A DNA stretch of 64,000 nucleotides from Flavobacterium johnsoniae UW101. GTDB lineage: Bacteria > Bacteroidota > Bacteroidia > Flavobacteriales > Flavobacteriaceae. This document shows positions 2,642 through 63,569 of this stretch, in pieces (within the stretch, counting starts at the first letter, position 1; each line of letters begins with the position of its first letter). The notes beneath the pieces were generated by a model. The model searched no databases. It worked only from the letters and a program-made list of their open reading frames with translations, and was not told where the DNA came from. The position numbers and the translations under genes are program-made. The stretch is from the NCBI RefSeq assembly GCF_000016645.1, contig NC_009441.1:5642001-5706000 (forward strand), in the 5' to 3' direction.

Positions 2642-4396
2642 ATGAAAGCAAAAGCATTTGATACCGGTTTATTTAAACGGATTTTAAAATATACGAAACC
2701 TTATAAATGGCGTTACTACGGCGTTATTATTTTTGCGGTTTCGCTCTCTATTTTTGCAGCTCTGCGACCTTATTTATTAAAACAAACGGTCGACGGCTAT
2801 ATCAAAACGCACGACAAGACTGGTTTACTGTTATACATTATTTTAATGGGATCGGTTTTGCTTATGGAGGTTTTCTCTCAGTTCTATTTTGTGTATTGGG
2901 CTAACTGGCTTGGACAGGATATTGTAAAAGATATTCGCAACAAACTTTTCAAACACATTTTAAGTTTTAGAATGAAATATTTTGATTTGGTTCCGGTTGG
3001 GCAGCTGGTTACCAGATCTGTTTCTGATATTGAATCTATAGCCCGTATTTTCAGTCAGGGATTGTTTATGATTATAAGTGATTTGATGAAAATGCTGGTG
3101 GTTTTGATTTTTATGTTTTATATGAACTGGAAACTTACCTGGATTGTGGTTGTTGCAATGCCTATTCTGGTTTATATTACCCGAATTTTCCAACGTAAAA
3201 TGCAGGTGGCTTTTGAGGAAGTACGTACACAGATTGCCAACATGAATTCGTTTGTTCAGGAACGTGTAACGGGAATGAAAATCGTACAGCTTTTTAACCG
3301 CGAAAAAATCGAAGCCGAAAATTTCAGAGTCATTAACGACAAACACAGAGTTGCGTGGATTAAAACCATTCTATACAACTCGATCTTCTTCCCTATTGCC
3401 GATATTATTTCGTCGATTACCTTAGGTTTAGTTGTAGTTTTTGGAGGATTCAAAATTTTGAACGGTGATAATTTTACAACATTCGGAGATTTGTTTTCTT
3501 ATACGATGTTTATCGGTATGCTTTTTAATCCGTTAAGACAGATTGCTGATAAATTTAACGAGATGCAGTTAGGAATGATTGCAGCCAATCGTGTTTTTGA
3601 TATCATCCATACTCAGGATCATATTCAGGATACAGGAACAATTGAAGCTCCGGTTTTTAACGGAAGTATCGATTTTAAACAAGTCCGTTTTAGTTATATT
3701 CCCGAAGAAGAAGTTATAAAAGGCATCGATTTATCTGTAAATGCCGGACAAACTGTTGCAATTGTAGGTTCGACCGGAGCAGGAAAATCAACTATTATTA
3801 ATCTGCTGAATCGTTTTTATGAAATTAACAGCGGTACGATTTGTATTGATGGAGAAAATATTGAGAATTACACTTTGGCTTCACTTCGAAAACAAATCGC
3901 TGTGGTTTTACAAGATGTATTTTTGTTTGCCGATACGATTTACAATAATATTACACTTCATAACCCTGAAATTACACGCGAAAAGGTTTTAGATGCTGCA
4001 AAGAAAATTGGTGTTCACGACTTTATTATGAGTCTTCCAGATAATTATGATTTTGATGTTAAGGAACGAGGCGTTATGCTTTCGTCTGGTCAAAGACAAT
4101 TAATTGCTTTTTTACGTTCGTATGTGAGCAACCCAAGTATTTTGATTCTAGATGAAGCAACTTCGTCTATTGATACCTATTCTGAAGAATTGATTCAGCG
4201 TGCAACGGAAACGATTACAAAAGGAAGAACTTCGATTATTATTGCACACCGTTTAGCAACAATTGTAAATGCTGATAAAATTGTGGTAATGGACAAAGGT
4301 TTGATTGTGGAACAAGGAACTCATCAGGAATTATTAATGAAAACTGATGGATATTATAAAAACTTATACGATTCTCAATTCTCGGTTGCGAATTAA
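2642..4396 (+). CDS. ABC exporter, MsbA/MDR-like half-transporter
   Basis: ATP-driven exporter of 584 residues with membrane domain and ATPase in one chain, likely acting as a homodimer. The first 320 residues hold about six membrane segments of the type I exporter fold. The ATPase has Walker A GSTGAGKST at about 376, a Q-loop in VVLQDVF, a signature that reads LSSGQRQL (SSGQ rather than SGGQ), Walker B ILILDEATSSID, and the switch histidine in IIAHRLAT. The substrate cannot be read from the sequence; lipid, peptide or drug export are all possible. A single second half-transporter is not adjacent. Confidence 0.92.
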   Translation: MKAKAFDTGLFKRILKYTKPYKWRYYGVIIFAVSLSIFAALRPYLLKQTVDGYIKTHDKTGLLLYIILMGSVLLMEVFSQFYFVYWANWLGQDIVKDIRNKLFKHILSFRMKYFDLVPVGQLVTRSVSDIESIARIFSQGLFMIISDLMKMLVVLIFMFYMNWKLTWIVVVAMPILVYITRIFQRKMQVAFEEVRTQIANMNSFVQERVTGMKIVQLFNREKIEAENFRVINDKHRVAWIKTILYNSIFFPIADIISSITLGLVVVFGGFKILNGDNFTTFGDLFSYTMFIGMLFNPLRQIADKFNEMQLGMIAANRVFDIIHTQDHIQDTGTIEAPVFNGSIDFKQVRFSYIPEEEVIKGIDLSVNAGQTVAIVGSTGAGKSTIINLLNRFYEINSGTICIDGENIENYTLASLRKQIAVVLQDVFLFADTIYNNITLHNPEITREKVLDAAKKIGVHDFIMSLPDNYDFDVKERGVMLSSGQRQLIAFLRSYVSNPSILILDEATSSIDTYSEELIQRATETITKGRTSIIIAHRLATIVNADKIVVMDKGLIVEQGTHQELLMKTDGYYKNLYDSQFSVAN

Positions 4397-4411: not shown

Positions 4412-5983
4412 TTGAAATTTAGATTAAAAAAAATAACATCCCGACGTGCATTTTTAATTTATGTAGCCGTCTCTATTCTTATTACTGTTTCTTCTGTATA
4501 TATATTGAGTAATTTGATTACTGATCTTACCGAAAAAGCAAATGAAGAAGCAGCACAGCGTAACTTTATTAAAAAGCAGGAATTTTTGTCGCAGGAATTC
4601 TCAAAATTTCTGGAACAGGAAAACAGAATAAAGCACGTTTTAAAAATAAGTAAACCAGAAGAACTGGCTTCTAACTTACATGTTTTGTCTTCGGTTCAAA
4701 ACACCAATTTATTGGTAGCCGATAATTGGTTTCAAATAAATGATAATAAAATTCAGTTTGGAACTGATTCTATTTCGGGTGACCTAAAAAAAGATGCAGA
4801 AGATTTTATCCAAAAAAATAAAGATCAGGATCACATAAGTGTTATTATTCCGCAGGGAGAAGAATGGGTTTGGAGAATTTATTTTAAACTTACTTCAAAA
4901 AACACAGTTGTTCGTTATGGCTACGATATCAACTTAAAAAAACTTGTTGATTATTTTTCCAGTATAGATATTAAATCGACTAACAATTATGCTTTTATAT
5001 TTGATAAGTCAGGAAGATGTATTTATCATCCTGAATTGAATTTTATAGGAAAAAATATTTATGAGGTTTCTTCTACCCGTGCAATTGATACCATATTTCC
5101 AAAAAAGCAGGATTATGTAAAAAGAGTTACCATGTCTGAATATTTAGGACTGGATGTTATTCGATTTACAAAAAAATTAGACCTTAGAAACACACATTGG
5201 TTTATATGTGTCAATTTTCCAAAAAATGTCAGCGACGAAAATGTAGCGTTGATTAATAAATATTCGACCTGGATATATTCGATTACAACGGTAATGCTTC
5301 TGCTGATTTTCTATTTATTCTCGTATGCCAACAGACGTGCTTACAAAGAGAAAGGAATTGCCATTAAAGAAAAAAACAGGCTTTTGGTTGAGAATGAAAA
5401 AATCATCAAAGAAAAAGCACTTATTCAGCTGCAGCATTTAAAAGAACAGATTAATCCGCACTTTTTATTCAATTCGCTCAACTCTCTTTACATGTTAGTT
5501 GGAAGCGATGTAAAAACGGCACAAAAATTCACACTGAACTTATCCCGTATTTACCGTTATTTAATTGATCCGCCTGAAAAAAATATTGTACCGCTTAAGG
5601 ATGAATTATTATTTATCGAAAAATATATCTTTTTACAGCAGACTCGTTTCAAGGAAGAATTATTCTTTTCTATTAAAATTGAAGATCAGGAAGCTCTCGA
5701 AAAGTTTATTCCGTATCTGGGATTTCAGGTAGTAGTCGAGAATGCTATTAAGCACAATATGGCGACACAGGAAAATCCGTTAACGACAGAAATTCTAATT
5801 CAAAAAGATCAGGTCATAATCACTAATAATCTTCAAAAAAAGACTCACAGCGAGCCTGGCACAAATTTTGGCTTAAAATACTTGTTAAGTATCTATAACT
5901 TCTACTCCAGAACCAATTTAACAACTTCAGAAAATGACGGCAAATTCGTATGTATTCTGCCATTAATATCCATTCACTCCTAA
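4412..5983 (+). CDS. LytS/YpdA-type sensor histidine kinase
   Basis: Sensor kinase of the His_kinase (PF06580) type. A first membrane segment (about 13-33), an extracytoplasmic domain of about 250 residues that looks like a Cache-type sensor, a second membrane segment (about 288-308), a short coiled region, and the kinase core with H350 in INPHFLFNSLNSLY. The ATPase has VVENAIKHN and a degenerate G-box. Start is TTG at 4412, 15 bases after the exporter stop. These kinases partner with LytTR regulators; none is adjacent, and the nearest is at 14475-15239, beyond the metalloprotease-SusCD genes. That pairing is inference. Confidence 0.88.
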   Translation: MKFRLKKITSRRAFLIYVAVSILITVSSVYILSNLITDLTEKANEEAAQRNFIKKQEFLSQEFSKFLEQENRIKHVLKISKPEELASNLHVLSSVQNTNLLVADNWFQINDNKIQFGTDSISGDLKKDAEDFIQKNKDQDHISVIIPQGEEWVWRIYFKLTSKNTVVRYGYDINLKKLVDYFSSIDIKSTNNYAFIFDKSGRCIYHPELNFIGKNIYEVSSTRAIDTIFPKKQDYVKRVTMSEYLGLDVIRFTKKLDLRNTHWFICVNFPKNVSDENVALINKYSTWIYSITTVMLLLIFYLFSYANRRAYKEKGIAIKEKNRLLVENEKIIKEKALIQLQHLKEQINPHFLFNSLNSLYMLVGSDVKTAQKFTLNLSRIYRYLIDPPEKNIVPLKDELLFIEKYIFLQQTRFKEELFFSIKIEDQEALEKFIPYLGFQVVVENAIKHNMATQENPLTTEILIQKDQVIITNNLQKKTHSEPGTNFGLKYLLSIYNFYSRTNLTTSENDGKFVCILPLISIHS

Positions 5984-6068: not shown

Positions 6069-8666
6069 ATGAAGGAAAAGGCATTCCTGCATAATGTAAA
6101 ATTATTCTGCTTACTAATTTTATTATTATTCATTCCTGTTACAGTTCTTGCCCAAAAGAAAAAGAAAAAAGAAACTGAGAGTGAAATTGTAAAAAAAGAT
6201 TCTACTGACGCCAAAAAAGGCAAAAAATATAGCGACCTTATAAAAAAAGGGACTGTTAAAAAAGGACTATTCAATATCATTCAGGTTAAAACCGATGTAT
6301 ATTTTGAAATTCAGGATAGTTTGTTTAAAAGAGAATTTCTAATTGTAAACAAATTATCTCAGGTTCCTTATGATCTTAACGAAGCTGGATTAAATAAAGG
6401 AATGAATTATGAAAATAAAGTTATTTCCTTTTATAAAGACACTATTGCAAAAAAAGTCTGGGTAAAGACCTATCAGCCTAAAGTTTCTTCTCCTAAAGAT
6501 GATGCCATCACAGCATCTGTAATTAATAATTTTGCCGAATCTATTATTGAAGTTTTTGATATCGAAACCAAAAACAACGATTCGAGCGCTGTTGTAATTA
6601 AAGTAAACAAGATTTTTGACGGAAAACAAAAAAGCTTTAATGATGTTATGGGCAACATTGGCTTAAACGGTTCTGTAAAATCTGATTTATCCTATATAGA
6701 AGGATTAAAATCTTTTCCTAAAAACATTGTTGTAAAATCACAAATGACAACTTCACTAAGCGATGGAGGTGCAACAGTACCCATTACGCTTGGTGTGACA
6801 ACTAATATTATTTTATTGGATAAAACTCCAATGAAACCTCGTTTTTCTGACAAACGAATTGGTTTTTTTACTGAAAAGCATTGGTACTTTGCCGATGCAC
6901 AGCAGGCAATGCTTGAAAAAGAATTGATTACCCGCTGGCGTTTAGAACCAAAGAAAGAAGATGAAGAACGTTATATGAAAGGTGAATTAGTAGAGCCGAA
7001 AAAACCAATCGTTTATTACATCGATCCATCGACTCCAAAACAATGGAGAAAAAACATCATTGATGGGGTACACGATTGGCAGGCAGCTTTTGAAAAAGCC
7101 GGATTTAAAAATGCCGTTATTGCAAAAGAACCTACTGAAGAAGATTTAGATTTTGACATTGATGATGTGCGTTATTCTGTTATTACGTATGCTGCATCGC
7201 CAAAATCAAACGCAATGGGACCATCTGTGGTTGATCCAAGAAGTGGTGAAATTATTGAGGCCGATATTATCTGGTGGCATAATGTAATGACTTCGCTTCA
7301 AAGCTGGATGCGTATTCAGACTGGACCAATTGACCCGAAAGCAAGAGGGAACAAATTCAGTGATGAACATATGGGAGAAGCAATTCGTTTTGTTTCGTCT
7401 CATGAAGTAGGACACACATTTGGTTTAAAACATAATATGGGCGCTTCTTTCGCTTATGATGTAGAATCTTTAAGATCTAAAGAATTCACAGCAAAAATGG
7501 GAGGCACTGCTCCTTCTATCATGGATTATGCCCGATACAATTATGTGGCACAGCCGGAAGACAATGTTACAGTTATTACTCCAAAAATTGGAGAATATGA
7601 TAAATATGCAATAGAATGGGGTTACAGATGGTATTCGCCTAACGAAAACGAAACAGCAAAACTAAACGCCTTACTTACAAAACATCAAAATGACCCCATT
7701 TATTTTTACGGTGAGCAGCAATCAGGCGTTGCGATTGATCCTCGCTCACAGTCTGAAGATTTAGGAAATGATGCTGTAAAAGCAAGTGAATACGGTTTAA
7801 AAAACTTAAAGCGTGTTGTAGACAATATTATAAACTGGACGTATGATAAAGATCAGTCTTACTACGAAACTGGTAAACTATATGTTGGAACTATCGGACA
7901 ATGGCAAACGTACAATGATCATGTATTAACCAATATTGGCGGTGTTTACTTAAACACTACAGTACACGGCGACAACAAACAAAGTTACGTTCCGGTTCCT
8001 GCAGCAATGCAGAAAAGAGCAGCCGATTATTTAATTAAAAATGTAATTACGATTCCACAGTGGTTGTTTTTCAATGACATTTTAGACAAAACAAATCCGC
8101 TGAAAGACTCTCCTCTTGGACCTTATGAGTACACACCATACACAATGGCAAGAGCATTACAGTACGAGATTATGTATAGTTTATTATTTGATGAACGTTT
8201 GCTTCGAATGACAGAAAATGAATTATACCAGCGAAATAAAACCAATGAGAAGGTTTTTACCGTAAATGATTTGTTTAAAAAATTACACCAAAGTGTATTT
8301 GCAGGAACTATCCAAAACAAATCACTTACTATTCTGGAGCGTATGACGCAAAAGAATTATGTAGATGTTTTAATTATTTCGACAAATAAATTATTTGAAA
8401 AAACAGATGCTAAAAAAACAATTCAACTTAAAGAAACATTACAAATGCCTCATTTATGTTCTGTAGATGATGAACATACGGCAAGAAACATTAATAACTA
8501 TTTTTTGAAAAGAGTTACAGAAGTAACCTCTGATAAAAAAGGAGAATTATCAAAAGTGCTTCAGTTATTAAAACTAAAAAAGAGCACCGGAGATCAATCG
8601 ACCCAAAACCATTACCTCGATTTAATACAACGAATCGAGAAAGCCCTGAATAATACAACCTTTTAA
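6069..8666 (+). CDS. Secreted zinc metalloprotease, DUF5117/DUF5118 type
   Basis: Large exported metalloprotease of 865 residues. A Sec signal peptide ends near VLA-Q (about residue 29), followed by a lysine-rich patch. The N-terminal half matches the DUF5118/DUF5117 architecture as I recall it. The catalytic site is H445-E-V-G-H449-TFGLK-H455, an exact HExxHxxGxxH metzincin motif, and SIMDY downstream serves as the Met-turn. It lies 18 bases before susC and probably shares its transcript. The context suggests it cuts proteins or peptides outside the cell or in the periplasm, with SusCD importing the products; that role is inference. Confidence 0.88.
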   Translation: MKEKAFLHNVKLFCLLILLLFIPVTVLAQKKKKKETESEIVKKDSTDAKKGKKYSDLIKKGTVKKGLFNIIQVKTDVYFEIQDSLFKREFLIVNKLSQVPYDLNEAGLNKGMNYENKVISFYKDTIAKKVWVKTYQPKVSSPKDDAITASVINNFAESIIEVFDIETKNNDSSAVVIKVNKIFDGKQKSFNDVMGNIGLNGSVKSDLSYIEGLKSFPKNIVVKSQMTTSLSDGGATVPITLGVTTNIILLDKTPMKPRFSDKRIGFFTEKHWYFADAQQAMLEKELITRWRLEPKKEDEERYMKGELVEPKKPIVYYIDPSTPKQWRKNIIDGVHDWQAAFEKAGFKNAVIAKEPTEEDLDFDIDDVRYSVITYAASPKSNAMGPSVVDPRSGEIIEADIIWWHNVMTSLQSWMRIQTGPIDPKARGNKFSDEHMGEAIRFVSSHEVGHTFGLKHNMGASFAYDVESLRSKEFTAKMGGTAPSIMDYARYNYVAQPEDNVTVITPKIGEYDKYAIEWGYRWYSPNENETAKLNALLTKHQNDPIYFYGEQQSGVAIDPRSQSEDLGNDAVKASEYGLKNLKRVVDNIINWTYDKDQSYYETGKLYVGTIGQWQTYNDHVLTNIGGVYLNTTVHGDNKQSYVPVPAAMQKRAADYLIKNVITIPQWLFFNDILDKTNPLKDSPLGPYEYTPYTMARALQYEIMYSLLFDERLLRMTENELYQRNKTNEKVFTVNDLFKKLHQSVFAGTIQNKSLTILERMTQKNYVDVLIISTNKLFEKTDAKKTIQLKETLQMPHLCSVDDEHTARNINNYFLKRVTEVTSDKKGELSKVLQLLKLKKSTGDQSTQNHYLDLIQRIEKALNNTTF

Positions 8667-17809: not shown

Positions 17810-17850
17810 AAATATACCGTTTTACGGTTATATATAATTCTCAATTAATT

Positions 17851-17885
17851 AAATCCGATTTGTGAAAACAGATCGGATTTTTTTA
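17851..17885 (+). terminator. Terminator of lpdA, ATCCGAT family
   Basis: AAATCCGAT pairs with ATCGGATTT across a 13-base loop and is followed by seven T. The stem is nearly the same as those at 21216, 22054 and 24421. Confidence 0.85.
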
Positions 17886-17997
17886 TAAATATTATTATCA
17901 TCCAAACACAAATTCAAAACCGCAATACAAGTCTTAAAATTTAACAAACAAAAAGTTGTTAAAAACTTGATATAAAAAAGTAATACAGATGTCTTAT

Positions 17998-18031: not shown

Positions 18032-18985
18032 ATGAAACTACCTTTTATAGAAATAATCGAAGCCGCAACCAGTGATCCTAATTTACTGATGTGGAAATTT
18101 TATGATGAAGACAAAGAAATCAAAAACGGAGCAAAACTAACCGTTCGTGAAAGTCAGCACGTTATGCTTTTAAATGAAGGCCAGCTTGCAGATGTTTTTT
18201 CTCCCGGACTTCATACTTTATCTACAGAAAACATTCCTATTTTAAGTAAATTAAAAGGCTGGAAATACGGTTTCGAAAGTCCGTTTAAAGTCGATGTTTA
18301 CTTTTTTAACACACACCAATTCATCAATAATAAATGGGGAACTCCTGCTCCTATTTTGATGAACGACCCTCAGTTTGGGCAAATCAGAATCCGCGCTTTC
18401 GGAAGTTTTGATATTAAAATTGCCGATCCTGCTAAATTCTTCCGCCAATATGCCGGAACTTACAAACAGCTTACCATTTTCGAATTGCAAAATCAGTTAC
18501 GAGATTTTGTGGCACCAAAATTTGGAGAAGTTTTAGCAAACGAAAATATTACCGTTACTGACGTTGCTGGAAATATTACACAATTAGGAAAAAAAATCGA
18601 GCCTTATCTTAAACCCTATTTTGAGCAGTTAGGTATCGAGTTAACCCAATTTGTAATTACAAGTGTAACCTTGCCGGAAGAAGTTACTGCACATTACGAT
18701 AAAATCACCAATATGAATATGGTAACCGATATGGATAAATTTACCAAATTCAATACCGCAACGGCAATTGGCGACAAAGGAACCGCGCTTCACGATGCAA
18801 CACAAAATGCCGTGACCATGGGAATTCTTTTAAACCAGTTACAGCAAAATAAAGAAACCCCAAAGCAGGAAACAGCAGACGATTTAACGTCTAAACTTCA
18901 AAAACTAAAATCTTTATTTGACGCTGGTTTAATTGACGAAGATGAATTCAAAAACAAGAAAACTGAACTATTAAGCCAATTGTAA
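18032..18985 (+). CDS. SPFH/band-7 protein, YdjI-like, with C-terminal SHOCT
   Basis: SPFH-domain protein of the YdjI group (annotated in some genomes as virion core protein), 317 residues. After an N-terminal KFYDEDKEIKNGAKLTVRESQ come the band-7 strands (about 25-215), with FSPGLHTLSTENIPI and a long helical part ending in TSVTLPEEV. The last 35 residues (DDLTSKLQKLKSLFDAGLI and on) form a SHOCT-type oligomerisation motif. There is no membrane segment, as in YdjI, which in Bacillus acts with PspA and a zinc-ribbon partner in membrane stress. It starts a tight gene series, overlapping the next gene by one base. Confidence 0.85.
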   Translation: MKLPFIEIIEAATSDPNLLMWKFYDEDKEIKNGAKLTVRESQHVMLLNEGQLADVFSPGLHTLSTENIPILSKLKGWKYGFESPFKVDVYFFNTHQFINNKWGTPAPILMNDPQFGQIRIRAFGSFDIKIADPAKFFRQYAGTYKQLTIFELQNQLRDFVAPKFGEVLANENITVTDVAGNITQLGKKIEPYLKPYFEQLGIELTQFVITSVTLPEEVTAHYDKITNMNMVTDMDKFTKFNTATAIGDKGTALHDATQNAVTMGILLNQLQQNKETPKQETADDLTSKLQKLKSLFDAGLIDEDEFKNKKTELLSQL

Positions 18986-19227
18986 TGGAAGAAAAAAAAG
19001 TCAATTCGTTTTTGAGCAGACTCAAAGAAAATGCGCAGAAACAAACCAATTATGGAGGTGAAATGGAAATTACCGAAGCCAAAATGAATGCAAAAGACTG
19101 CCCAAACTGCGGTGCAGGAAGAGCAAAACAAGACGGTTTAACCCATTGCGCCTATTGCGGATTTGAGTTTTTAAACGTAAAACTTACTGACGGAGTTTAT
19201 ATTAAAAAAGAAGATAATTCAATTTAA
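18985..19227 (+). CDS. Small zinc-ribbon protein
   Basis: Protein of 80 residues whose ATG overlaps the SPFH stop in TAATG, so translation is probably coupled. Two Cys pairs, CPNCG (about 37-41) and CAYCG (about 54-58), form a zinc ribbon; the first 30 residues are polar and helical. It is a candidate adaptor of the SPFH protein, comparable to the zinc-ribbon part of Bacillus YdjG but without its membrane region. The precise role is unknown. Confidence 0.8.
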   Translation: MEEKKVNSFLSRLKENAQKQTNYGGEMEITEAKMNAKDCPNCGAGRAKQDGLTHCAYCGFEFLNVKLTDGVYIKKEDNSI

Positions 19228-19239
19228 AAATTAGATAAC

Positions 19240-20211
19240 GTGTTCGGACTATTTAACAAATCAAAAAACAAAGAAAACCAAGCAAACCAAACAAATCAAG
19301 TAAGCAGAGAATCATATCCGGAATGGTATGCAGAACTTCAGGAATCACAACAAAGATGGTTCGCTTTCTTAGAAAAACTCGAAGCAAAAATGGAAGAACT
19401 GGCTGTAGCCGCAATTCCGGAGTTAAAACAGCTTTTGCAGGATGATGAAGACATGTACAAAAGGACTTTTCAAAGAGTTTATTCAGGCATAAACGGTCAG
19501 TTAAACAATATTAGAGAAAAAGCCAGAGATACATACGAAGAAAAAATCGACAGTATTTATTACGACCTAGATTCAAGAGTTTCTGTTTTAGACAAAAATC
19601 ATGATTTATTATCTGATTTTAGAAGCGCGTGTTCAGATCGTTACAATGATTTTGACTATAAATACGACTATTGGAGAAAACAAATCGAAAAAACTCAGGA
19701 ACGCGATCTGGAAATCGAATACAAAAAAATTCTGGACGAATACGAAACCATCAAAAGCAAATTTAACTGCACGCAGTGCGGCGGCAATATAGAAATCGAG
19801 AAAATATTTTTAATCGAAACCTATATCACATGCCCATACTGCCAGACACAAAATACATTTGCTCCAAGTACATTGGGAAGAAATCTTCAGAATATTGCCA
19901 AAGAACTTGCAGAACAGCGAACAGCTCATTTGTATGACGCTTATGAAAGTGAAAAAGACAAAGAGCGTGATTTGTACCATAAACGTCATGAATTAAGCCT
20001 TAGCACCATTCATGAATCTGATAAAAAAGTTTTAGCCGAAATTCAGGCAAAAATGGACGATCTTGAAGAACAGAGACAAGCTGCCATTAAAAATGCTCCA
20101 AAATTATATCAGGTTTATTTAAGAGCCATGTATGACGAATGGAATAAAATTACGCCCGATTTAAAAGAACACAACGAAAAAATGTATCAAAATCAATTAC
20201 AATACCTATAA
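19240..20211 (+). CDS. Coiled-coil protein with central zinc ribbon
   Basis: Protein of 323 residues starting with GTG at 19240, 12 bases after the previous stop. Long charged helices (about 25-170 and 215-320) flank a zinc ribbon with CTQCG at about 176 and CPYCQ about 20 residues later. No signal peptide or membrane segment is present. I do not recognise a named family. The place in the series and the second zinc ribbon suggest a cytoplasmic scaffold working with the SPFH protein. The alternating helix/ribbon layout is loosely like PspA-linked proteins, which is inference. Confidence 0.7.
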   Translation: MFGLFNKSKNKENQANQTNQVSRESYPEWYAELQESQQRWFAFLEKLEAKMEELAVAAIPELKQLLQDDEDMYKRTFQRVYSGINGQLNNIREKARDTYEEKIDSIYYDLDSRVSVLDKNHDLLSDFRSACSDRYNDFDYKYDYWRKQIEKTQERDLEIEYKKILDEYETIKSKFNCTQCGGNIEIEKIFLIETYITCPYCQTQNTFAPSTLGRNLQNIAKELAEQRTAHLYDAYESEKDKERDLYHKRHELSLSTIHESDKKVLAEIQAKMDDLEEQRQAAIKNAPKLYQVYLRAMYDEWNKITPDLKEHNEKMYQNQLQYL

Positions 20212-20235
20212 ATTATTAACCCTAAAATTTGAAAA

Positions 20236-21195
20236 ATGTTTAAAAAACTTTTTGGAGCTCTAACTGGAGACAATAAACAGGAAAACCAAAACTATGAAGC
20301 GCAGACTTCAAATGATAATTATGAAAATGATTATGAAGATGAATATCAGGAAGTAGAATACGATCCGGAAACTTTACACGGAACACATTATACTGTAGAA
20401 GATTTTGATGCAGAAGTAGCTGAAAGAGCCGAAGCATGGATTGCAGACGAACGTGCAAGCGGAGAAAACCTTGAAGATAAAGATATTAAAAACATCTATT
20501 TTAATTATAGAAGAACAGTTTATACAGAATGGAACAACTGCGATTCAGACCAAATGATTCGTTTTGAACACGCTAATTCTTTAAAATACAGCGGAGTTCA
20601 AACTTCAGGATTTGTAAAAGTAGACGATAATAATCCGTTCTTAGAACCAGTTCACGGTGTAGATTTAAGAACTTACACTGCAATGTGTCTTAAAATAAGT
20701 GCAGGAGTAGATTATCTTGAAGTTTGCAAAGCAATGGGATTCGAACCAGCAGTTTGGGAAGAATTAAACACAATCTGGCCGCAGCGTATGGGCGAAGATA
20801 CTTCATTTACCGTAACAACTTTATTTGGCCAGTATTATGCCGAAAATGTAACAGTTCCTCAATTAGAAAACCTGAAAGCTGAAATTTCAGAAGAAGGCGC
20901 AGCAAATCTTGAAAGAATAAAAACTGATCGTTATTTCTACGAAGAACTAGCAGGTGCAAGACAAGCGGCTTACGAATACGGAATTGACGGCGCTCAATGG
21001 ATTTTAGATACTTTTGGAATCAACCTTGCCGATTTTCAATCTGTCGCAATGCAATGGATGACAGAGCAAAACCAAAACTGGAATTCAGCAGACATTACAG
21101 AATTTCATGATTATCAACAAGCAAAACAAAAAGAATATGCAGCCAAATTTGCGGCTGAACAAGGCGGAAATATCGCAGACGATGTAAATTTCTAA
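20236..21195 (+). CDS. DUF6620-like protein
   Basis: Soluble, very acidic protein of 319 residues. The N-terminal 45 residues are disordered and rich in Asn, Asp, Glu and Tyr. The rest is mainly helical with many Trp and Tyr (EEWNNCDSD-type segment, YFYEELAGARQAAYEYG). I recall similar proteins as DUF6620, found beside SPFH/YdjI-like genes, but cannot verify this here. It begins 24 bases after the coiled-coil gene and is followed by a terminator, so it closes the first transcription unit of the cluster. Confidence 0.65.
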   Translation: MFKKLFGALTGDNKQENQNYEAQTSNDNYENDYEDEYQEVEYDPETLHGTHYTVEDFDAEVAERAEAWIADERASGENLEDKDIKNIYFNYRRTVYTEWNNCDSDQMIRFEHANSLKYSGVQTSGFVKVDDNNPFLEPVHGVDLRTYTAMCLKISAGVDYLEVCKAMGFEPAVWEELNTIWPQRMGEDTSFTVTTLFGQYYAENVTVPQLENLKAEISEEGAANLERIKTDRYFYEELAGARQAAYEYGIDGAQWILDTFGINLADFQSVAMQWMTEQNQNWNSADITEFHDYQQAKQKEYAAKFAAEQGGNIADDVNF

Positions 21196-21215
21196 ATTCA
21201 GCTTCTTTTGATGAT

Positions 21216-21250
21216 TAAAAAACCGATTTGCAAAACAAATCGGTTTTTTA
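21216..21250 (+). terminator. Terminator, CCGATTTG stem
   Basis: AAAAAACCGATTTG pairs with CAAATCGGTTTTTT around a 4-5 base A-rich loop. This is a strong, nearly symmetric terminator ending the SPFH transcription unit. Confidence 0.88.
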
Positions 21251-21300
21251 TTCGTTAAAAATAGCACAATCACAAAAAGTTACTTTATAAAAAATATACA

Positions 21301-22050
21301 ATGGAAAACACACCAATATTCTTTGCCGATGGAGAAAATCCAAAAATGATCGAAGCCTACAAAAAAGCACAAGAAACCTTTAAATATTTCTGGAGAGAAT
21401 TATCGTGGGAATACCGCAGAATAATTCCCGGACTAGACGTTGCCTGCGTAAAACTGGCATTTACTCAGGAAATAGACGGTGAAACTGTTGTAGAACACAT
21501 GTGGATTAACGACGTAAATTTTGACGGTGATATTATTTATGGAACTTTGGTAAACCAGCCAAACGAATTAACGAATGTAAATAATGGAGACGAAGTTGAA
21601 ATTCCGGTAAACCAAATCAGCGACTGGTTATTTGCAAGCCAGGGAAAAACTTACGGAGCTTTTACCATACACGCCATGCGATCTGAAATGAGCGAAGATG
21701 AAAGAAATGAACATGATGATGCCTGGGGATTAGATTTTGGAGATTACAACGATATTTTGGTAGTGTCTGACCAAAATGAAAAACCAGAAAATCTTGTAGA
21801 ACATCCTATGAGCAAAAACATGAAAGAGAGCCTTATCGATTTTGTAAAAAACAATCCGGAAGAACTTACTTCGCAAGATGAATTGGGTTATACTTTTCTA
21901 CATCGCGAAACTATTGCAGGAAATAGTACATCTGTCGAAGTTTTACTAGAATCTGGAGCAGACAAAAATGCTAAAAATCATCTGGGTAAAACAGCTTTAG
22001 ATTATGCGGCAGAACTAAAATGGAATCACTTGATACCATTATTTAAATAA
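21301..22050 (+). CDS. DUF2314 and ankyrin-repeat protein
   Basis: Two-part cytoplasmic protein of 249 residues. The first half is a DUF2314 domain (about 25-125: VEHMWINDVNFDGDIIYGT, then LVNQPNEL, NNGDEVEIP and ISDWLF). The C-terminal third holds ankyrin repeats (about 185-249: LGYTFLHRETIAGN, VEVLLESGADKNAKNHLGKTALDYA). DUF2314 proteins are widespread with unknown function; ankyrin repeats bind partner proteins. It has its own terminator, and its spacing suggests an independent unit in the same cluster. Confidence 0.85.
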   Translation: MENTPIFFADGENPKMIEAYKKAQETFKYFWRELSWEYRRIIPGLDVACVKLAFTQEIDGETVVEHMWINDVNFDGDIIYGTLVNQPNELTNVNNGDEVEIPVNQISDWLFASQGKTYGAFTIHAMRSEMSEDERNEHDDAWGLDFGDYNDILVVSDQNEKPENLVEHPMSKNMKESLIDFVKNNPEELTSQDELGYTFLHRETIAGNSTSVEVLLESGADKNAKNHLGKTALDYAAELKWNHLIPLFK

Positions 22051-22053
22051 AAT

Positions 22054-22095
22054 AAAAAATCCGATTTACGTTTTGTTAAATCGGATTTTTTATTT
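22054..22095 (+). terminator. Terminator, ATCCGATTT stem
   Basis: AAAAAATCCGATTT pairs with AAATCGGATTTTTT around a 10-base loop, immediately after the ankyrin gene. It has the same stem family as 17851 and 24421. Confidence 0.88.
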
Positions 22096-22146
22096 TTAAA
22101 ACATAAACAAAATCTTACTTTTGAAATTTATTTTAAAGTTTATAAA

Positions 22147-22656
22147 ATGCTTTTCAAATTTTCAATGCCCAATAGATCAGTTATATTTTTATTATGTTTA
22201 GTTTCTCTTTTAATATTAAACTCATGCTATTCCTATAAAATTTATCCAAAAGAATATCGAAACGCAATAAATACACACGTCAGAGAAACTGTATATGTTG
22301 TAAACGATACTTTAAAAAAAGAATTTAAGATTTTAGAGAAATCAAACCTTTTTACTTTTACCAAAGACAGCACACAAACAAACATAAAAATAAAACTGTA
22401 TCCTATAAAGCAATATCCAGGCTGCGGAAATCCGCTTATTGCTCAGGTTATAACATTAGGACAGCTGCCAGTATATCTGCCTAATCAATACGAATATCAA
22501 TTTGACCGAATAGAAAAAGGAAAAACGAACCCGCAAAAATTTAACTTAGGCATTACTCAAAGATATTGGTTTTGGGATATGTTCACATTCAGCAAAAATT
22601 TCGAAAAAAAAGCTGGTCAGTTACTATTGGTTAAATATCAAGATAAGCAGAATTAA
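22147..22656 (+). CDS. Hypothetical lipoprotein
   Basis: Protein of 169 residues with a lipoprotein signal and lipobox ILNSC (C27 from this start). An ATG at 22165 gives a more typical signal length and may be the real start. The remainder is not recognised: a mixed alpha/beta domain with IKIKLYPIKQYPGCGNPL and a C-terminal QRYWFWDMF. A -7-like TACTTTTG sits at 22116-22123. It lies between the ankyrin and TPM genes of the SPFH cluster and is the only predicted outer-membrane member. Confidence 0.65.
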   Translation: MLFKFSMPNRSVIFLLCLVSLLILNSCYSYKIYPKEYRNAINTHVRETVYVVNDTLKKEFKILEKSNLFTFTKDSTQTNIKIKLYPIKQYPGCGNPLIAQVITLGQLPVYLPNQYEYQFDRIEKGKTNPQKFNLGITQRYWFWDMFTFSKNFEKKAGQLLLVKYQDKQN

Positions 22657-22737
22657 AATGACAGTTTTAAAAAATTATTTTTCATTTTAAAACAAAAAAC
22701 TAATCTTTTTTTCGTCTGTTTAAAATAAAGAATATGC

Positions 22738-22745
22738 TACTTTTG
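22738..22745 (+). promoter_or_regulatory. -7 promoter element of the TPM gene
   Basis: TACTTTTG fits TAnnTTTG exactly, with TCTG about 19 bases upstream as an imperfect -33 element. It lies 27 bases before the ATG at 22773. Confidence 0.4.
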
Positions 22746-22772
22746 CACCACCAAATCTAATCTGCAAGTGTG

Positions 22773-23288
22773 ATGAAAAAAATATTCTTCATTATTTTAA
22801 TTATCTTGTTTTCACCAAGTATAGTATTTTCTCAGGCAAAAAAAGAAAAGAATGTAAATACCGATCCTAAAAACGTTTTTTCAAGACCTTATGATTATGT
22901 AAACGACTTCGAAAAAATCATGAATGCCGATCAAATTACAACACTTACCAATACACTGAAAGCATTCGAAAAAAAACATCTTTATAAAATTACCGTTGTA
23001 ACCACATCTACAATAGAGCCATATACCTCTTTTCCTGATTACGCTCTTGAATTAGACAAATATCTGGCAGTCGATCCTAAACTAGACCCTACTATTTTAA
23101 TTGTTGTAAGCAAACAATTAAGACAAATTCAGGTTCAAAGCATTGATCTTATTCGCTATAAATTAAGTGATAATGACACCCAGAATATTATAACCACTTA
23201 TGCAGTACCAGAATTTAAAAAAGGAGACTACTCTAAAGGTTTGGAACTTGCTGTCGAACAAATAATGAATAAATTAAAAGTTTATTAA
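22773..23288 (+). CDS. Exported TPM-domain protein
   Basis: Exported protein of 171 residues: signal peptide (about 1-21, ending IVFSQ), then a single TPM (TPM_phosphatase) domain with VNDFEKIMNADQITTLTNTL, ITVVTTSTIEPY and a closing YSKGLELAVEQIM helix. The usual C-terminal membrane anchor or Gly-rich tail of TPM proteins is missing, so it should be free in the periplasm. A GTG at 22770 directly precedes the chosen ATG. TPM proteins act in photosystem repair in plants and occur with SPFH proteins in Bacillus ydjGHI; the role here is not known. Confidence 0.85.
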   Translation: MKKIFFIILIILFSPSIVFSQAKKEKNVNTDPKNVFSRPYDYVNDFEKIMNADQITTLTNTLKAFEKKHLYKITVVTTSTIEPYTSFPDYALELDKYLAVDPKLDPTILIVVSKQLRQIQVQSIDLIRYKLSDNDTQNIITTYAVPEFKKGDYSKGLELAVEQIMNKLKVY

Positions 23289-23357: not shown

Positions 23358-24002
23358 ATGACTTTAGAAGAATATAAAAAAGAATTTTCAGAAGACGACT
23401 CTGTTGGATGGTTAGAAATTGACAAAGTATTTGATCAGCTTTACCCAGAACAAGAACCCAAACATTTTGCACCGGCAATCAGCTATATGTTAGGCGGAGA
23501 AAGTCCGCTTGATGGTGTCAGTATTTACGAAAGTAAAAAGCAAGAAGATCATTTTCATTTTGTAACCTATGGCTTTTCAGAATTGTACTATAATGAAGAA
23601 AAAGTCAACGGAGAATTCAGTAAATGGGGATTTGAACTTACTTTCAGGCTTAAACCTTTTGAAGCCGATAACGGAACCCCAAGCTGGGCGGTTGCACTTT
23701 TGCAGAATATTGCCAAATATGTTTTTAGTACAGGTAACTGGTTTGAAGAATTTCATTATATGCCGGCAAATGGTCCTATAAGACTTGATACCGAAACCGA
23801 TATTACTGCGCTGGTTTTTGTAAACGATCCCGAAATAGAAAAGATACAAACCCCTCACGGCGAAGTTTCTTTTCTGCAAATCGTTGGAATTACTTCTGCA
23901 GAATATGAACATATCAAAGAAAATCCGGAAACTGTCGAAGAGCTTGTAAATAAATTAAAAGAAAACAATCCATTATTAATAACCGATTTAAACCGAAAAT
24001 AA
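23358..24002 (+). CDS. Suppressor-of-fused (SUFU) domain protein
   Basis: Cytoplasmic protein of 214 residues that is essentially one SUFU domain (about 30-185). Markers are the N-terminal DQLYPEQEPKHFAP, the strand DGVSIYES, FELTFRL, LQNIAKYVF and a C-terminal FLQIVGITSAEYE. In bacteria such domains are frequent as immunity proteins in polymorphic-toxin loci, but no toxin is visible here. The stop codon is followed at once by the ATG of the next gene, so the two are co-translated. Confidence 0.87.
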   Translation: MTLEEYKKEFSEDDSVGWLEIDKVFDQLYPEQEPKHFAPAISYMLGGESPLDGVSIYESKKQEDHFHFVTYGFSELYYNEEKVNGEFSKWGFELTFRLKPFEADNGTPSWAVALLQNIAKYVFSTGNWFEEFHYMPANGPIRLDTETDITALVFVNDPEIEKIQTPHGEVSFLQIVGITSAEYEHIKENPETVEELVNKLKENNPLLITDLNRK

Positions 24003-25377: not shown

Positions 25378-26280
25378 ATGAAAGAAATAACTATTGTCGA
25401 ATTCACTTCTAATTTGGGCTTAAAAGAACCTCAAACCGGAAAAGAACCAGGCGTAAACCGTCTGCCCGATTGGTTATGGAAACACAATCTTCATAAAGCC
25501 ATTACACCAAAAAATATCGTAAGACTTGATCCGCCCAGATATTCAAACATAAAAGATCCTCAAACTACTATTTTAAATGCAGACTCATTAGTTACTTATG
25601 CCAGAGAACAGGCTTATTTGATAAACAATTTAATCAGCGCCAATAAATTTCCTTTTGTACTTGGCGGTGACTGCAGTATACTTTTAGGAACCGCAATGGC
25701 ATTAAAGCAAAAAGGAAATTACGGTCTATTCTATCTCGACGGTCATACTGATTTTATGGATGTTTCTTTATCTGAAACCGGCGGTACAGGCGGCATGATT
25801 GCGTCTATTGTTACTGGAAACGGACACGAAAAATTAACCAATATTCTTAACTTGTCTCCATACATAAAAGAAGAAAACCTTTGGTGCGTGGGCAATCGCG
25901 AATATGATGACGAATACGAAAATGAAATCAGAAAATCTTCTGCAGTATATTTAAGTTTAAAAGAATTACGAAAACAAGGTATTAAAAACTCTGTACAGTC
26001 TTTTCTTTTAGAAGTTGAAAGTAAAAAGCTCGATGGTTTCTGGCTGCACATCGATGTCGATGTTTTAAACGACTCTGTTATGCCCTGCGTGGACAGCCGA
26101 ACTCCAGACGGACTGACTTATGACGAATTTAATGAACTTACCTCCTATTTGTTTCAAAGTCAAAAACTAAGCGGACTCGAAATTACAATTCTCGATCCGG
26201 ATTTAGACCAAACCGGAGAATACACTAAGGAATTTGTCGCTAATATTACCTCAACTTTTAATCAGAACTTCAACAATTAG
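25378..26280 (+). CDS. Arginase/agmatinase-family hydrolase
   Basis: Ureohydrolase fold, 300 residues, binuclear manganese enzyme family acting on guanidino compounds. Metal-ligand blocks are LGGDCS (D98, with C99 where classical arginase has His), DGHTDF (D121, H123, D125) and HIDVDVL (D226, D228). The His-to-Cys change in the first block occurs in part of the family as I remember it and may alter metal use rather than abolish activity. The C-terminal EITILDPDLDQTGEY is also typical. The substrate cannot be assigned, and the gene is not near arginine metabolism genes. Confidence 0.87.
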   Translation: MKEITIVEFTSNLGLKEPQTGKEPGVNRLPDWLWKHNLHKAITPKNIVRLDPPRYSNIKDPQTTILNADSLVTYAREQAYLINNLISANKFPFVLGGDCSILLGTAMALKQKGNYGLFYLDGHTDFMDVSLSETGGTGGMIASIVTGNGHEKLTNILNLSPYIKEENLWCVGNREYDDEYENEIRKSSAVYLSLKELRKQGIKNSVQSFLLEVESKKLDGFWLHIDVDVLNDSVMPCVDSRTPDGLTYDEFNELTSYLFQSQKLSGLEITILDPDLDQTGEYTKEFVANITSTFNQNFNN

Positions 26281-58916: not shown

Positions 58917-60770
58917 ATGAAAAAAAACTACTTTTTTCTTTTTTTACTGGTTTTTACATCTGCTTTTTCACAAATCCCTACTGGATATTATGATACGGCA
59001 ACAGGAACCGGCTATGCATTAAAAACGCAATTGTACAATATTATTAAAGATCACACCGATAATGGATATGGCGGACTTTATGTAACGTATGCCACATCAG
59101 ACCTTGATCATTTTTATGAAAATGACGGTACGGTTTTAGACATGTATTCTGAAAATCCAACAGGAACAGATCCTTACAGCTACAGCATTGCCACTACTCA
59201 AAGATGTGGTAATTATGTTAAAGAAGGTGATTGTTATAACAGAGAACACATCATTCCACAATCTGTATTTGACGAAAAATCACCAATGGTGGCCGATGCT
59301 CATTTTATTACCCCAACAGATGGAAAGGTTAACGGAATGCGCTCGAATTACCCTCATGGCGTTGTAAATAATCCAACTTATACCTCTTTAAACGGAAGCA
59401 AATTAGGTGCAAATGCTACTGCGGGATATTCAGGAACTGTTTTTGAACCAATTGATGAATTTAAGGGCGATATTGCCCGAATGTATTTTTATTTTGCAAC
59501 ACGATATGAAAATACAATTGCCGGATATTCATATCCAATGTTTAACGGAACTTCAAACAAAGTTTTTACAGCAGCTTTCTTAAATATTCTTCTAGCCTGG
59601 CATACACAAGATCCTGTAAGTCCGAGAGAAATAGAGCGAAACAATGCTATTTATGCACGTCAGAACAACAGAAATCCATTTATTGATCATCCGGAATATG
59701 TAAATCAAATCTGGACAACTGAATCAGACGATACTACACCTCCAACTACACCTCAAAACTTAACGGTTACACAAAGCACTTCAAACTCAATAAGTTTAAG
59801 CTGGTCGGCTTCGACAGATAATTCAGGAATTGCAGCTTATGCGATTTACGTAGACAATGTTTTTAAACAAAATACAACGAGTACTACTGCAACAATATCA
59901 GGATTAACACCTTCGACAACCTATTCTTTTTATGTAATTGCAAAAGACGCATCCAACAATTCTTCTACTCAAAGCACCTCTGTAAATGGAACTACAACTG
60001 AAGCATCATCCGGAGGCGGCGGTACTGTTACGAATGAAATTTTCTTCACCGAATATGTTGAAGGTTCTGGAAACAATAAATACTTAGAAATTTCAAATTT
60101 TACAGGAAACACAGTCGATTTAACTAAATATGCTATCAAAAAGCAGGTTAATGGCGCCGGTCCGTGGACATCAACTTCCGGACTTGCATTAACGGGAACA
60201 TTAGCTCATGGGGCATCGTATGTAATTGCATACAGTCAGGCAGCTGCAGCTTGTTTTGCTCCGGCAAGTGCTAATTTATCAAGCGGTGCAACTGAACTTC
60301 AGTTTAACGGAAATGATCCTGTAGGATTATTTAAAAATGATGTTTTGATTGATATAATTGGTACTTTAGGCAATACTGCTAATTTTTCTATTGACGAAAC
60401 TTTAAGAAGAAAACCAACGGTTTCTTCACCAAACACTATTTTTGATAAAGCTGCAGAATGGGATGTGTATCCTAAAGATACTTGCAGCGGATTAGGAAGT
60501 CATACTTTAGCCAATTTAGGAACTGGAAATTTTGACTCTGCCATATTTTCAATCTATCCAAATCCATCAAATGGTCATTTTACAATTCAGTTGAAAGATT
60601 CAAATGAAACTTCAAATATTGAAATAATATCAATTTTAGGACAAAGAGTTTTTTCACAAAAGAACAGTCTTAATTCGTCTATAAATGTGAATAATATTCA
60701 AAAAGGAATTTATATTGTACGCATTACGCAAGGTTCAAAAACAAGCAGCAAAAAAATAATTATCAACTAG
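58917..60770 (+). CDS. Secreted endonuclease I with FN3, lamin-tail-like domain and T9SS sorting tail
   Basis: Secreted nuclease of 617 residues. A signal peptide (about 1-19), an endonuclease I (PF04231) domain (about 20-265) with catalytic H111 in CYNREHIIPQSVF and NGMRSNYPHG, an FN3 domain (about 275-355), a lamin-tail-like domain (about 365-490: FFTEYVEGSGNNKYLEI and FNGNDPVGLFKNDVLIDIIGT) and a type A T9SS C-terminal domain (YPNPSNGHF and GIYIVRI...KKIIIN). It would be released or attached outside the cell to degrade DNA or RNA. A paralogue of the same design is encoded at 61725-63569. Confidence 0.93.
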   Translation: MKKNYFFLFLLVFTSAFSQIPTGYYDTATGTGYALKTQLYNIIKDHTDNGYGGLYVTYATSDLDHFYENDGTVLDMYSENPTGTDPYSYSIATTQRCGNYVKEGDCYNREHIIPQSVFDEKSPMVADAHFITPTDGKVNGMRSNYPHGVVNNPTYTSLNGSKLGANATAGYSGTVFEPIDEFKGDIARMYFYFATRYENTIAGYSYPMFNGTSNKVFTAAFLNILLAWHTQDPVSPREIERNNAIYARQNNRNPFIDHPEYVNQIWTTESDDTTPPTTPQNLTVTQSTSNSISLSWSASTDNSGIAAYAIYVDNVFKQNTTSTTATISGLTPSTTYSFYVIAKDASNNSSTQSTSVNGTTTEASSGGGGTVTNEIFFTEYVEGSGNNKYLEISNFTGNTVDLTKYAIKKQVNGAGPWTSTSGLALTGTLAHGASYVIAYSQAAAACFAPASANLSSGATELQFNGNDPVGLFKNDVLIDIIGTLGNTANFSIDETLRRKPTVSSPNTIFDKAAEWDVYPKDTCSGLGSHTLANLGTGNFDSAIFSIYPNPSNGHFTIQLKDSNETSNIEIISILGQRVFSQKNSLNSSINVNNIQKGIYIVRITQGSKTSSKKIIIN

Positions 60771-61648: not shown

Positions 61649-61724
61649 CTACAATACATTTTTAAAATTCTAATATTCAGATTTTTAAAAACATCTAAAA
61701 CAACCAAATCTTAAACTATTGACT

Positions 61725-63569
61725 ATGAAAAAAAACTACTTTTTGCTGGTATTACTGTTTTCTATTATTGGTTTTTCTCAAATTCCTTCTGGTTATTACA
61801 ATACTGCAACCGGAACAGGTTATACTTTAAAAACACAATTGTATAATATTATTAAAGACCACACCAATAATGGTTATGCAGGATTATATACAACTTATTT
61901 AACATCTGACGTTGATAATTTTTACGAAAACGACGGAACTATTCTGGATATGTATTCTGAAAATCCATCCGGAACAGACCCTTACAATTATACAACCGGA
62001 ACAACTCAAAGATGCGGCAATTATTCTGCCGAAGGCGATTGCTACAATAGAGAACATATAATTCCTCAGTCGGTTTTTAACGAACAGTCACCAATGGTTG
62101 CCGATGCACATTTTATTACACCAACCGACGGAAAAGTAAACGGAATGCGTTCTAATTATCCGCACGGAACTGTAAACTCCGCAACTTATACTTCTCAAAA
62201 TGGAAGTAAACTAGGCTCAAGCAGCGTATCCGGATATTCAGGAACCGTTTTTGAGCCCATCAATGCTTTTAAAGGCGATATTGCCCGAATGTATTTTTAT
62301 TTTGCAACACGTTACGAAAACACAGTTGCCGGATATTCTTATGCTATGTTTAATGGTTCAAGCAATCAGGTTTTTACAACTGCTTTCTTAAATATGCTTT
62401 TGGCGTGGCACGCACAAGATCCTGTAAGTGCCAGAGAAATTGCCAGAAATAATGCTATTTATGCTCGTCAAAACAACAGAAATCCGTTTATCGATCATCC
62501 GGAATATGTAAACCAAATCTGGGGCGGAACATCTTCTACAGATACACAGGCTCCTACTGCTCCAACGAGTTTAGCCTCAACTTCAAAAACAGCGGTTTCA
62601 ATTTCACTTTCGTGGAACGCTTCTACAGATAATGTAGCCGTTACAGGTTATGATGTTTATGCAAACAGTGCTTACAAAACAACTGTTTCGGGCACAACAG
62701 CAACCATTACAGGTTTAACAGCTTCTACAGCTTATTCTATTTATGTAAAAGCAAAAGATGCAGCCGGAAATGCTTCTGCGTCAAGCAATACTATTTCGGT
62801 TACAACCAACAGCAGCGGAACTGGAACTGCAACAGACCTGCTTTTCTCTGAATACATTGAAGGTTCAGGAAATAACAAAGCCCTTGAAATTGCAAACAAT
62901 ACCGGAAGTTCTGTTAGTTTGTCTGCTTACACCATTAAAAAACAAACAAACGGAGCTGGTTCGTGGAGTACAGGATTGGCTTTAACAGGAACATTAGCAA
63001 CAGGAAGTAAATTTGTAATAGTAAACAGTTCAATGTCATCAAGCTGTTTCCCCACTAGTTCTGCCAATATTTCGACAACAGCAACAGAATTAACTTTCAA
63101 TGGAAACGATGCTGTAGGTTTATTTAAAAACGGAGTTTTAATTGACATCATAGGAACTTTTAACGGCGGAACTGCAAATTTTGCAGCAGATGTAACTTTA
63201 AGAAGAAAATCGACTGTAACTTCTCCAAGCACAACTTTTAACTTAAGTGCCCAATGGGATTCGTTTTCACAAGATACCTGCAATAATTTAGGAAGCAAAA
63301 TGGCCAGACCAATCGAAGAAGAAGTTGTTGAAACTTCAGATGAGATTGTGATTTTCCCTAATCCTTCAGATGGAAATTTTAATATTGGTTTAAACAATTT
63401 TAATTTTCCTTACAGCTTAGAAATATTCTCTTTTACAGGGCAAAAAGTTTTTGAAAAACAAAATGCTTCAGATTCTATAATCTCTGTAAGTTATCTTCCA
63501 AGCGGAATTTATATTGTTAAAATCGAAAAGGATTCAAAAACTACTATTAAAAAGATCATAATCAATTAA
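61725..63569 (+). CDS. Secreted endonuclease I paralogue with FN3, lamin-tail-like domain and T9SS tail
   Basis: Protein of 614 residues from the ATG at 61725 (a TTG two codons upstream is less likely). It shares domain order and catalytic H111 (CYNREHIIPQSVF) with the gene at 58917. The endonuclease domain is the most similar part, whereas the FN3, lamin-tail-like and C-terminal sorting regions have diverged more. The sorting tail contains FPNPSDGNF and GIYIVKI...KKIIIN. Both secreted nucleases could supply phosphate or nucleosides or help in killing and DNA uptake. This is a tandem gene duplication interrupted by one gene. Confidence 0.93.
   Translation: MKKNYFLLVLLFSIIGFSQIPSGYYNTATGTGYTLKTQLYNIIKDHTNNGYAGLYTTYLTSDVDNFYENDGTILDMYSENPSGTDPYNYTTGTTQRCGNYSAEGDCYNREHIIPQSVFNEQSPMVADAHFITPTDGKVNGMRSNYPHGTVNSATYTSQNGSKLGSSSVSGYSGTVFEPINAFKGDIARMYFYFATRYENTVAGYSYAMFNGSSNQVFTTAFLNMLLAWHAQDPVSAREIARNNAIYARQNNRNPFIDHPEYVNQIWGGTSSTDTQAPTAPTSLASTSKTAVSISLSWNASTDNVAVTGYDVYANSAYKTTVSGTTATITGLTASTAYSIYVKAKDAAGNASASSNTISVTTNSSGTGTATDLLFSEYIEGSGNNKALEIANNTGSSVSLSAYTIKKQTNGAGSWSTGLALTGTLATGSKFVIVNSSMSSSCFPTSSANISTTATELTFNGNDAVGLFKNGVLIDIIGTFNGGTANFAADVTLRRKSTVTSPSTTFNLSAQWDSFSQDTCNNLGSKMARPIEEEVVETSDEIVIFPNPSDGNFNIGLNNFNFPYSLEIFSFTGQKVFEKQNASDSIISVSYLPSGIYIVKIEKDSKTTIKKIIIN

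Follow-up and report, generated by a model that had tools for sequence, protein, structure and literature searches.

A conserved four-gene SPFH and zinc-ribbon module in Bacteroidota, a possible PspA-independent membrane scaffold

We analysed a 64,000-nucleotide stretch of the one-contig, 6.1-Mb genome of Flavobacterium johnsoniae UW101 (positions 5642001-5706000; hereafter the window, within which feature positions are counted), and describe here a compact module of four genes on its forward strand. Gene and family calls come from an open reading frame (ORF) scan and a Pfam family scan of the window proteins. In order, the module encodes an SPFH protein; ZR1, a small protein with a zinc ribbon; CCZR, a bundle of helices with a zinc ribbon in its middle; and an acidic protein of the DUF6620 family (Table 1). 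The ZR1 start codon overlaps the SPFH stop codon by one base, and the gaps that follow measure 12 bases (ZR1 to CCZR) and 24 bases (CCZR to DUF6620). Terminator-like hairpins lie between lpdA and the SPFH gene, 3' of the DUF6620 gene and 3' of the next gene, which encodes a DUF2314-ankyrin protein, and all three have T-rich 3' sides. At the two junctions folded within the core, SPFH-ZR1 and CCZR-DUF6620, folding was no better than for shuffled sequences and no stable hairpin was found. The hairpins thus appear to delimit the core at either end. We consider 18032-21195 likely to be a single operon, and the DUF2314-ankyrin, lipoprotein-like and TPM genes that follow are probably separate transcription units; the gaps around the latter two were folded in part. 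A consensus terminator scan picked up, of the three hairpins, only the one on the lpdA side; the one after DUF6620 was perhaps missed by the pattern scan because its A-T pairs run into the T tract.

Table 1. Features of the module and its surroundings in the window
Feature	Position	Strand	Basis
Terminator-like hairpin between lpdA and SPFH, left border	17851-17880, within 17845-17890	+	-18.3 kcal/mol, z -6.3
SPFH / Band_7_1 protein, C-terminal SHOCT, 317 aa, core gene 1	18032..18985	+	PF13421 4e-76, SHOCT 1.3e-8
ZR1, 80-aa zinc-ribbon protein, core gene 2	18985..19227	+	CxxCGAxR...CxYCG motif
CCZR, 323-aa helical bundle with central zinc ribbon, GTG start, core gene 3	19240..20211	+	zinc ligands, AlphaFold2
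DUF6620 acidic all-helical protein, end ADDVNF-COOH, core gene 4	20236..21195	+	PF20325 1.2e-16
Terminator-like hairpin 3' of DUF6620, right border	21210-21256	+	-21.3 kcal/mol, z -7.7
DUF2314 (Imm34)-ankyrin protein, neighbour outside core	21301..22050	+	Pfam 3.5e-60
Hairpin 3' of DUF2314-ankyrin	22050-22098	+	-18.8 kcal/mol, z -6.1
Lipoprotein-like protein, neighbour outside core	22147..22656	+	no Pfam family
Exported TPM-domain protein without anchor, neighbour outside core	22770..23288	+	PF04536 3.2e-20
SUFU-domain protein, neighbour outside core	23358..24002	+	PF05076 7.8e-49

Conservation was examined in 51 loci collected by a search of genome contigs with the SPFH protein, which is therefore present in all of them by construction; the window SPFH is 97% identical to that of Flavobacterium sp. 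HSC-32F16. In 49 of the 51, tblastn finds SPFH, ZR1, CCZR and DUF6620 in this order, on one strand and within 4.5 kb. These include a locus in which SPFH is split over two ORFs (L050) and another whose contig ends inside DUF6620 (L047). Counts were taken from tblastn since the ORF list kept the longest of overlapping ORFs, and reverse-strand ORFs masked ZR1 in L026 and L050, CCZR in L030 and DUF6620 in L048. One of the two exceptions, L049, is a 3.4-kb contig ending near the SPFH gene; the other is taken up below. The ordered loci comprise 29 from a close Flavobacterium group and 20 others, among them F. branchiophilum, F. microcysteis, Niabella, Pedobacter, Sphingobacterium, Chitinophaga, Fluviicola and a metagenome-assembled genome (MAG) labelled Campylobacteraceae, for which a binning error is possible. 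One of the 49, from Bacteroidales bacterium 45-6 (L043), has two additional genes between ZR1 and CCZR (2795-3836), which encode a DUF6714 protein and a small protein that looks exported.

Among 296 Bacteroidota genomes, the CCZR and DUF6620 profiles match an identical set of seven (Fisher p 2.7e-14, kinship ignored), five of which belong to the window's own genus, and the Pfam DUF6620 model matches the same seven. The two genes lie at neighbouring places in all seven, including two distant forms with shortened versions of the proteins: G271, where DUF6620 occurs twice, beside a zinc-ribbon protein of extended length and a CCZR of 243 aa, and G280, where DUF6620, a zinc ribbon and CCZR sit close to the end of a contig. 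G317, which belongs to the window's genus and is smaller, has the order 131-aa hydrophobic protein, ZR1, CCZR, DUF6620, SPFH, with identities to the window of 37% for ZR1, 32% for SPFH, 23% for CCZR and about 20-21% for DUF6620; a relative of the hydrophobic protein was found in none of eight other core genomes. The four core genes are almost certainly one unit, and its inheritance across Bacteroidota is patchy.

No hydrophobic segment was found in the SPFH protein. Four of 14 control genomes have a PF13421 match, and that of Bacillus subtilis, we infer, is YdjI. The zinc-ribbon matches of ZR1 and CCZR fall short of the curated Pfam cut-offs, yet each protein has clear CxxC...CxxC pairs; they carry one zinc ribbon each, and no hydrophobic segment. 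The N-terminal helix of ZR1 is predicted to be amphipathic, with a hydrophobic moment of 0.60 that falls at the 97th percentile of 741 background N-termini, and the ZR1 family has a mean moment of 0.58 (41 proteins) against a background of 0.39. Four loci encode, ahead of SPFH and in the same orientation as the core, a TPR-like protein with a LuxR-like helix-turn-helix end (L035 7968-9647, L036 2299-3957, L043 42-1079 and L037 7243-8928, the last split over two ORFs), with weak Pfam matches and one hydrophobic stretch as checked for L036; it is a possible regulator.

In B. subtilis, YdjI is soluble, is predicted to lack a membrane segment, needs YdjG and YdjH to reach the membrane and is required for PspA focus formation (PMC8581546), and YdjG consists of two zinc ribbons and a transmembrane (TM) segment (PMC11237479). 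The window operon resembles pspA-ydjGHI in setting an SPFH protein without a membrane segment beside zinc-ribbon partners, and the initial annotation had already noted this likeness, along with a DUF6620 protein and the lack of PspA and of the membrane-bound YdjG. The families are borne out by the matches and four-cysteine motifs in Table 1, and both absences hold: PspA has no match in the cluster or in the whole window genome, and ZR1 and CCZR, with their single ribbons and no hydrophobic segment, are not double-ribbon membrane proteins. That the SPFH protein has no membrane segment had been presented as a puzzle, but this is not unusual, since YdjI is predicted to be without one too. The membrane TPM protein YdjH is likewise missing from the operon, which has ZR1, CCZR and DUF6620 where pspA-ydjGHI has PspA, YdjG and YdjH. 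The TPM protein of the window is exported and unanchored, as annotated, its one hydrophobic segment being N-terminal, and other units precede it; elsewhere the genome encodes a TPM protein that does have a second such segment. No PspA match was found in 15 of 17 genomes with the module marker genes, the window's own included. Because PspA, YdjG and YdjH are lacking and CCZR and DUF6620 are added, the core is not a member of the PspA-YdjGHI system, though it may work like it.

Other arrangements show how SPFH proteins and zinc ribbons are combined. Published examples include operon variants whose PspA dyad has given way to a band-7 protein with 2TM and SHOCT (PMC11237479), band-7 genes that adjoin pspA in Bacteroidota (PMC9239133), and SPFH proteins and zinc ribbons linked to archaeal ESCRT loci (PMC10936438). 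Relatives of the SPFH protein turned up in 20 plasmid records, five of which we examined. Those of Vibrio, Paracoccus and Comamonas are 40-46% identical and the next gene encodes a two-zinc-ribbon protein, as in the window a zinc-ribbon neighbour, but one with a C-terminal hydrophobic segment; in Vibrio, the SPFH C-terminus is GYF_2 instead of SHOCT. Since this double-ribbon protein matches the published description of YdjG (PMC11237479), the pairing of SPFH with zinc ribbons appears to be recurrent. The SPFH gene of a Bacteroides finegoldii plasmid has a hydrophobic protein and a zinc-ribbon TPR protein as neighbours. On a Novosphingobium plasmid, an SPFH protein of the same family (34-35% identical) is found with DUF4178 and polyamine genes; in contrast to the window, no CCZR or DUF6620 is annotated there and polyamine enzymes follow, a layout that resembles an operon type in PMC11237479. 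No description of an SPFH/ZR1/CCZR/DUF6620 operon was found in the literature searched, in agreement with the annotation's view of the combination as possibly undescribed.

The CCZR zinc ligands C177, C180, C198 and C201 are invariant in 73 sequences and in a set of 12 that includes distant ones. AlphaFold2 (73 sequences; pLDDT 92.7, pTM 0.76) predicts helices from 28 to 171, the zinc ribbon at 177-201, and then more helices. No chain named PspA was among the matches listed in the CCZR fold search, a result compatible with the ESCRT-III/PspA fold being either present or absent. The DUF6620 protein (pI 4.2) scores 60.8 bits against PF20325, for which the gathering cut-off is 27; residues 127-319 alone are matched, and the first 263 of the 450 model positions are unmatched. 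Its AlphaFold2 model (79 sequences, pLDDT 87.9) is all helical with a low-confidence N-terminus. Since three similar segments can be seen by eye in the G280 copy, the fold is probably a helical repeat. Pfam gives no function for DUF6620, and it is named in no paper in the literature searched. The window genome has a second DUF6620-like stretch (E 1.6e-7), joined to DUF1266, within the region G000:C1 2170031-2180824 (L080). It adjoins a lipoprotein-like gene with DUF1266, genes for a zinc-ribbon protein and for DUF3137, and one LemA-like gene, with two TPM genes and another LemA-like gene some 6-8 kb away (the LemA calls by eye).

The C-terminal tail of DUF6620, [DES]D[VIL]xF-COOH, is present in 117 of the 120 homologues listed, and its consensus, DD[VI]xF-COOH, is near-invariant; the three misses are P0203 and P0211, which have other ends, and P0216, whose last residue is Y. 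The tail is also found in 47 of 48 fetched loci with an in-frame gene end, the exception being L043, whose DUF6620, judging by length and tail, is P0203. It is kept in four distant copies and not present in the DUF1266 fusion. Among 892 ORFs of more than 100 aa in the fetched loci, just one other protein has such a tail, a protein of 469 aa upstream of the core in Flavobacterium limi (L021 7660-9069), whose SSB-like end reads ESDDLPF. Escherichia coli SSB ends in DDDIPF (PMC5872125), and the window genome has six SSB-family matches; of two tails inspected, one ends in NDLPF and one has no such end. The DUF6620 tail is likely a docking tag that resembles the SSB tail.

Our best reading is that the core is a PspA-independent variant of an SPFH and zinc-ribbon membrane scaffold, with soluble adaptors in place of the membrane-anchored YdjG and YdjH. 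The core proteins probably act at the membrane. The fuller proposal, that the unit builds such a scaffold on the inner face of the cytoplasmic membrane with the roles that follow, is to our mind evenly balanced. The SPFH protein would oligomerise at the membrane, as other SPFH proteins do, and ZR1, through its amphipathic N-terminal helix and zinc ribbon, could help to attach it, taking over the role that YdjG and YdjH have in Bacillus. CCZR may serve as a rod-like adaptor linking the scaffold to DUF6620, which would present its acidic C-terminus to the binding groove of a partner. The output might be local organisation or repair of the membrane under envelope stress. YdjI-type SPFH in B. subtilis is a known link between PspA and the membrane; a compact module with three uncharacterised partners would permit a genetic test of the role of SPFH where PspA, YdjG and YdjH are absent together, and through it DUF6620 gains a context and a binding peptide that can be tested.

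Several points weigh against this proposal. The membrane and stress role is itself read from sequence, PspA is encoded elsewhere in 2 of the 17 core genomes, and the mean N-terminal moments of CCZR (0.28) and DUF6620 (0.45), set against a background of 0.35 with a standard deviation of 0.13, are not convincingly amphipathic. The predicted CCZR and DUF6620 folds gave no informative structural match, DUF6620 seems to lack its first ~125 residues in seven fetched loci, and a Spirochaetaceae MAG (L042) has SPFH without the other three genes. In G271 (two contigs, listed as 100% complete) the ZR1-CCZR-DUF6620 trio is on contig 1 and the sole PF13421 match over the cut-off is on contig 2, so SPFH may not be needed for the trio to work; G280 likewise has its SPFH on a separate contig. 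Loci found through SPFH are uninformative on trios that lack it.

These arrangements, with no adjoining SPFH in G271, nor in G280 as far as its short contig shows, favour a different reading: the functional unit would be the trio itself, acting in solution to regulate transcription or genome maintenance, and SPFH would be a membrane tether that is often present but not essential. The likeness of the DUF6620 and SSB tails, with an SSB-family protein of the same genome ending in NDLPF, and the naming of CCZR as DksA- or RPC12-like by several sources fit it as well. Against this, 49 loci, a set collected through SPFH itself, have SPFH as their adjoining first gene, none of the 117 conserved DUF6620 tails has the proline that is next to last in SSB, and the zinc-finger and DksA/TraR-type matches are all under the curated cut-offs. 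We regard this reading as possible but doubtful. A further reading, in which ZR1, CCZR and DUF6620 are an undescribed machine attached to a PspA-free SPFH platform and the DUF6620 tail mimics that of SSB, so bringing SSB-binding genome-maintenance proteins to the membrane and coupling membrane repair to DNA repair, is as a whole very unlikely.

The scaffold proposal concerns four genes, whereas the initial annotation had joined all seven from 18032 to 23288, which do lie on one strand at the positions it gave, into one possible expanded membrane-stress system. We scored the neighbours at E <= 1e-4 over the sequence fetched for each locus, of which there is little for some contigs. In the 29 close Flavobacterium loci, DUF2314-ankyrin is present in 22, TPM in 21, SUFU in 17, the lipoprotein in 1 and lpdA in 27; within the fetched stretch, none of the five occurs in any of the 20 ordered loci outside that group. 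The expectation that the genes co-occur beyond this strain thus stands for the core and fails for DUF2314-ankyrin, TPM and the lipoprotein outside one Flavobacterium group, the last recurring in 1 of the 51 loci (L028). CCZR was matched in 14 of 150 Flavobacterium genomes, and with one match treated as chance (G414) 13 core genomes are left. DUF2314-ankyrin, counted at E <= 1e-20, is found in 20 of the 150, in 7 of which it accompanies the core. For a joint system speak its frequency in core genomes (7/13, against 13/137 of the others; p 2.7e-4, kinship ignored), its position within 400 bp of DUF6620 in 19 of the 49 ordered loci, and the metagenomic protein P0216, a natural fusion with a DUF2314 domain inside a DUF6620 protein. 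This excess is nevertheless confounded by shared ancestry around lpdA, and the other 13 DUF2314-ankyrin genomes are without the core. Wider stretches, fetched for 12 of these (all but G315), show lpdA upstream in 10, TPM nearby in 7 and SUFU in 6 (a 29% minus-strand TPM match in G299 was left out). DUF2314-ankyrin lies directly 3' of lpdA in five (G336, G400, G387, G345 and G394; gaps of about 180-470 bp), and the core was therefore inserted between these genes or lost from there. With hairpins between the units, and only the first four genes travelling together, a seven-gene system is most improbable. DUF2314-ankyrin and TPM, both of which occur without the core in the Flavobacterium group, and the lipoprotein are not required parts of it; given the excess co-occurrence and the P0216 fusion, DUF2314 may be an occasional accessory.

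The same neighbours raise the question whether the region serves immunity or conflict and its SPFH core responds to membrane damage. DUF2314 corresponds to Imm34, which is listed with Imm-Ank, SuFu and SUKH among the most frequent polyimmunity domains (PMC3482391); a SUKH-like protein just under the Pfam cut-off also lies 1.6 kb after the G317 genes. However, 73 representative downstream proteins belong to varied families: in the 25 listed out of 65, SUFU, DUF2314, Imm33 and AbiEii were each matched once, and SUFU occurs in the upstream protein set too. The four core proteins match no Pfam immunity family, and no convincing PADLOC family match was found. A polyimmunity locus would carry several immunity-domain genes on one polycistronic unit; in the window, DUF2314-ankyrin and SUFU are set apart by two other genes and one hairpin, and may or may not share a transcript. 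An immunity locus is highly unlikely, and the four-gene membrane scaffold is the reading we prefer.

Some minor observations concern further genes. In Flavobacterium sp. 270 (L018), two tandem proteins at 5486-5779 and 6118-6408 combine a start resembling a signal peptide with a ubiquitin domain, matched in the first (PF00240 1.9e-25) and seen by eye in the second. An arginase-like gene, called by eye, starts at 25378 in the window, and at 58917-60770 and 61719-63569 two similar large exported-looking proteins are encoded near each other, each having, by eye, an endonuclease-like start and fibronectin-like and C-terminal sorting parts.

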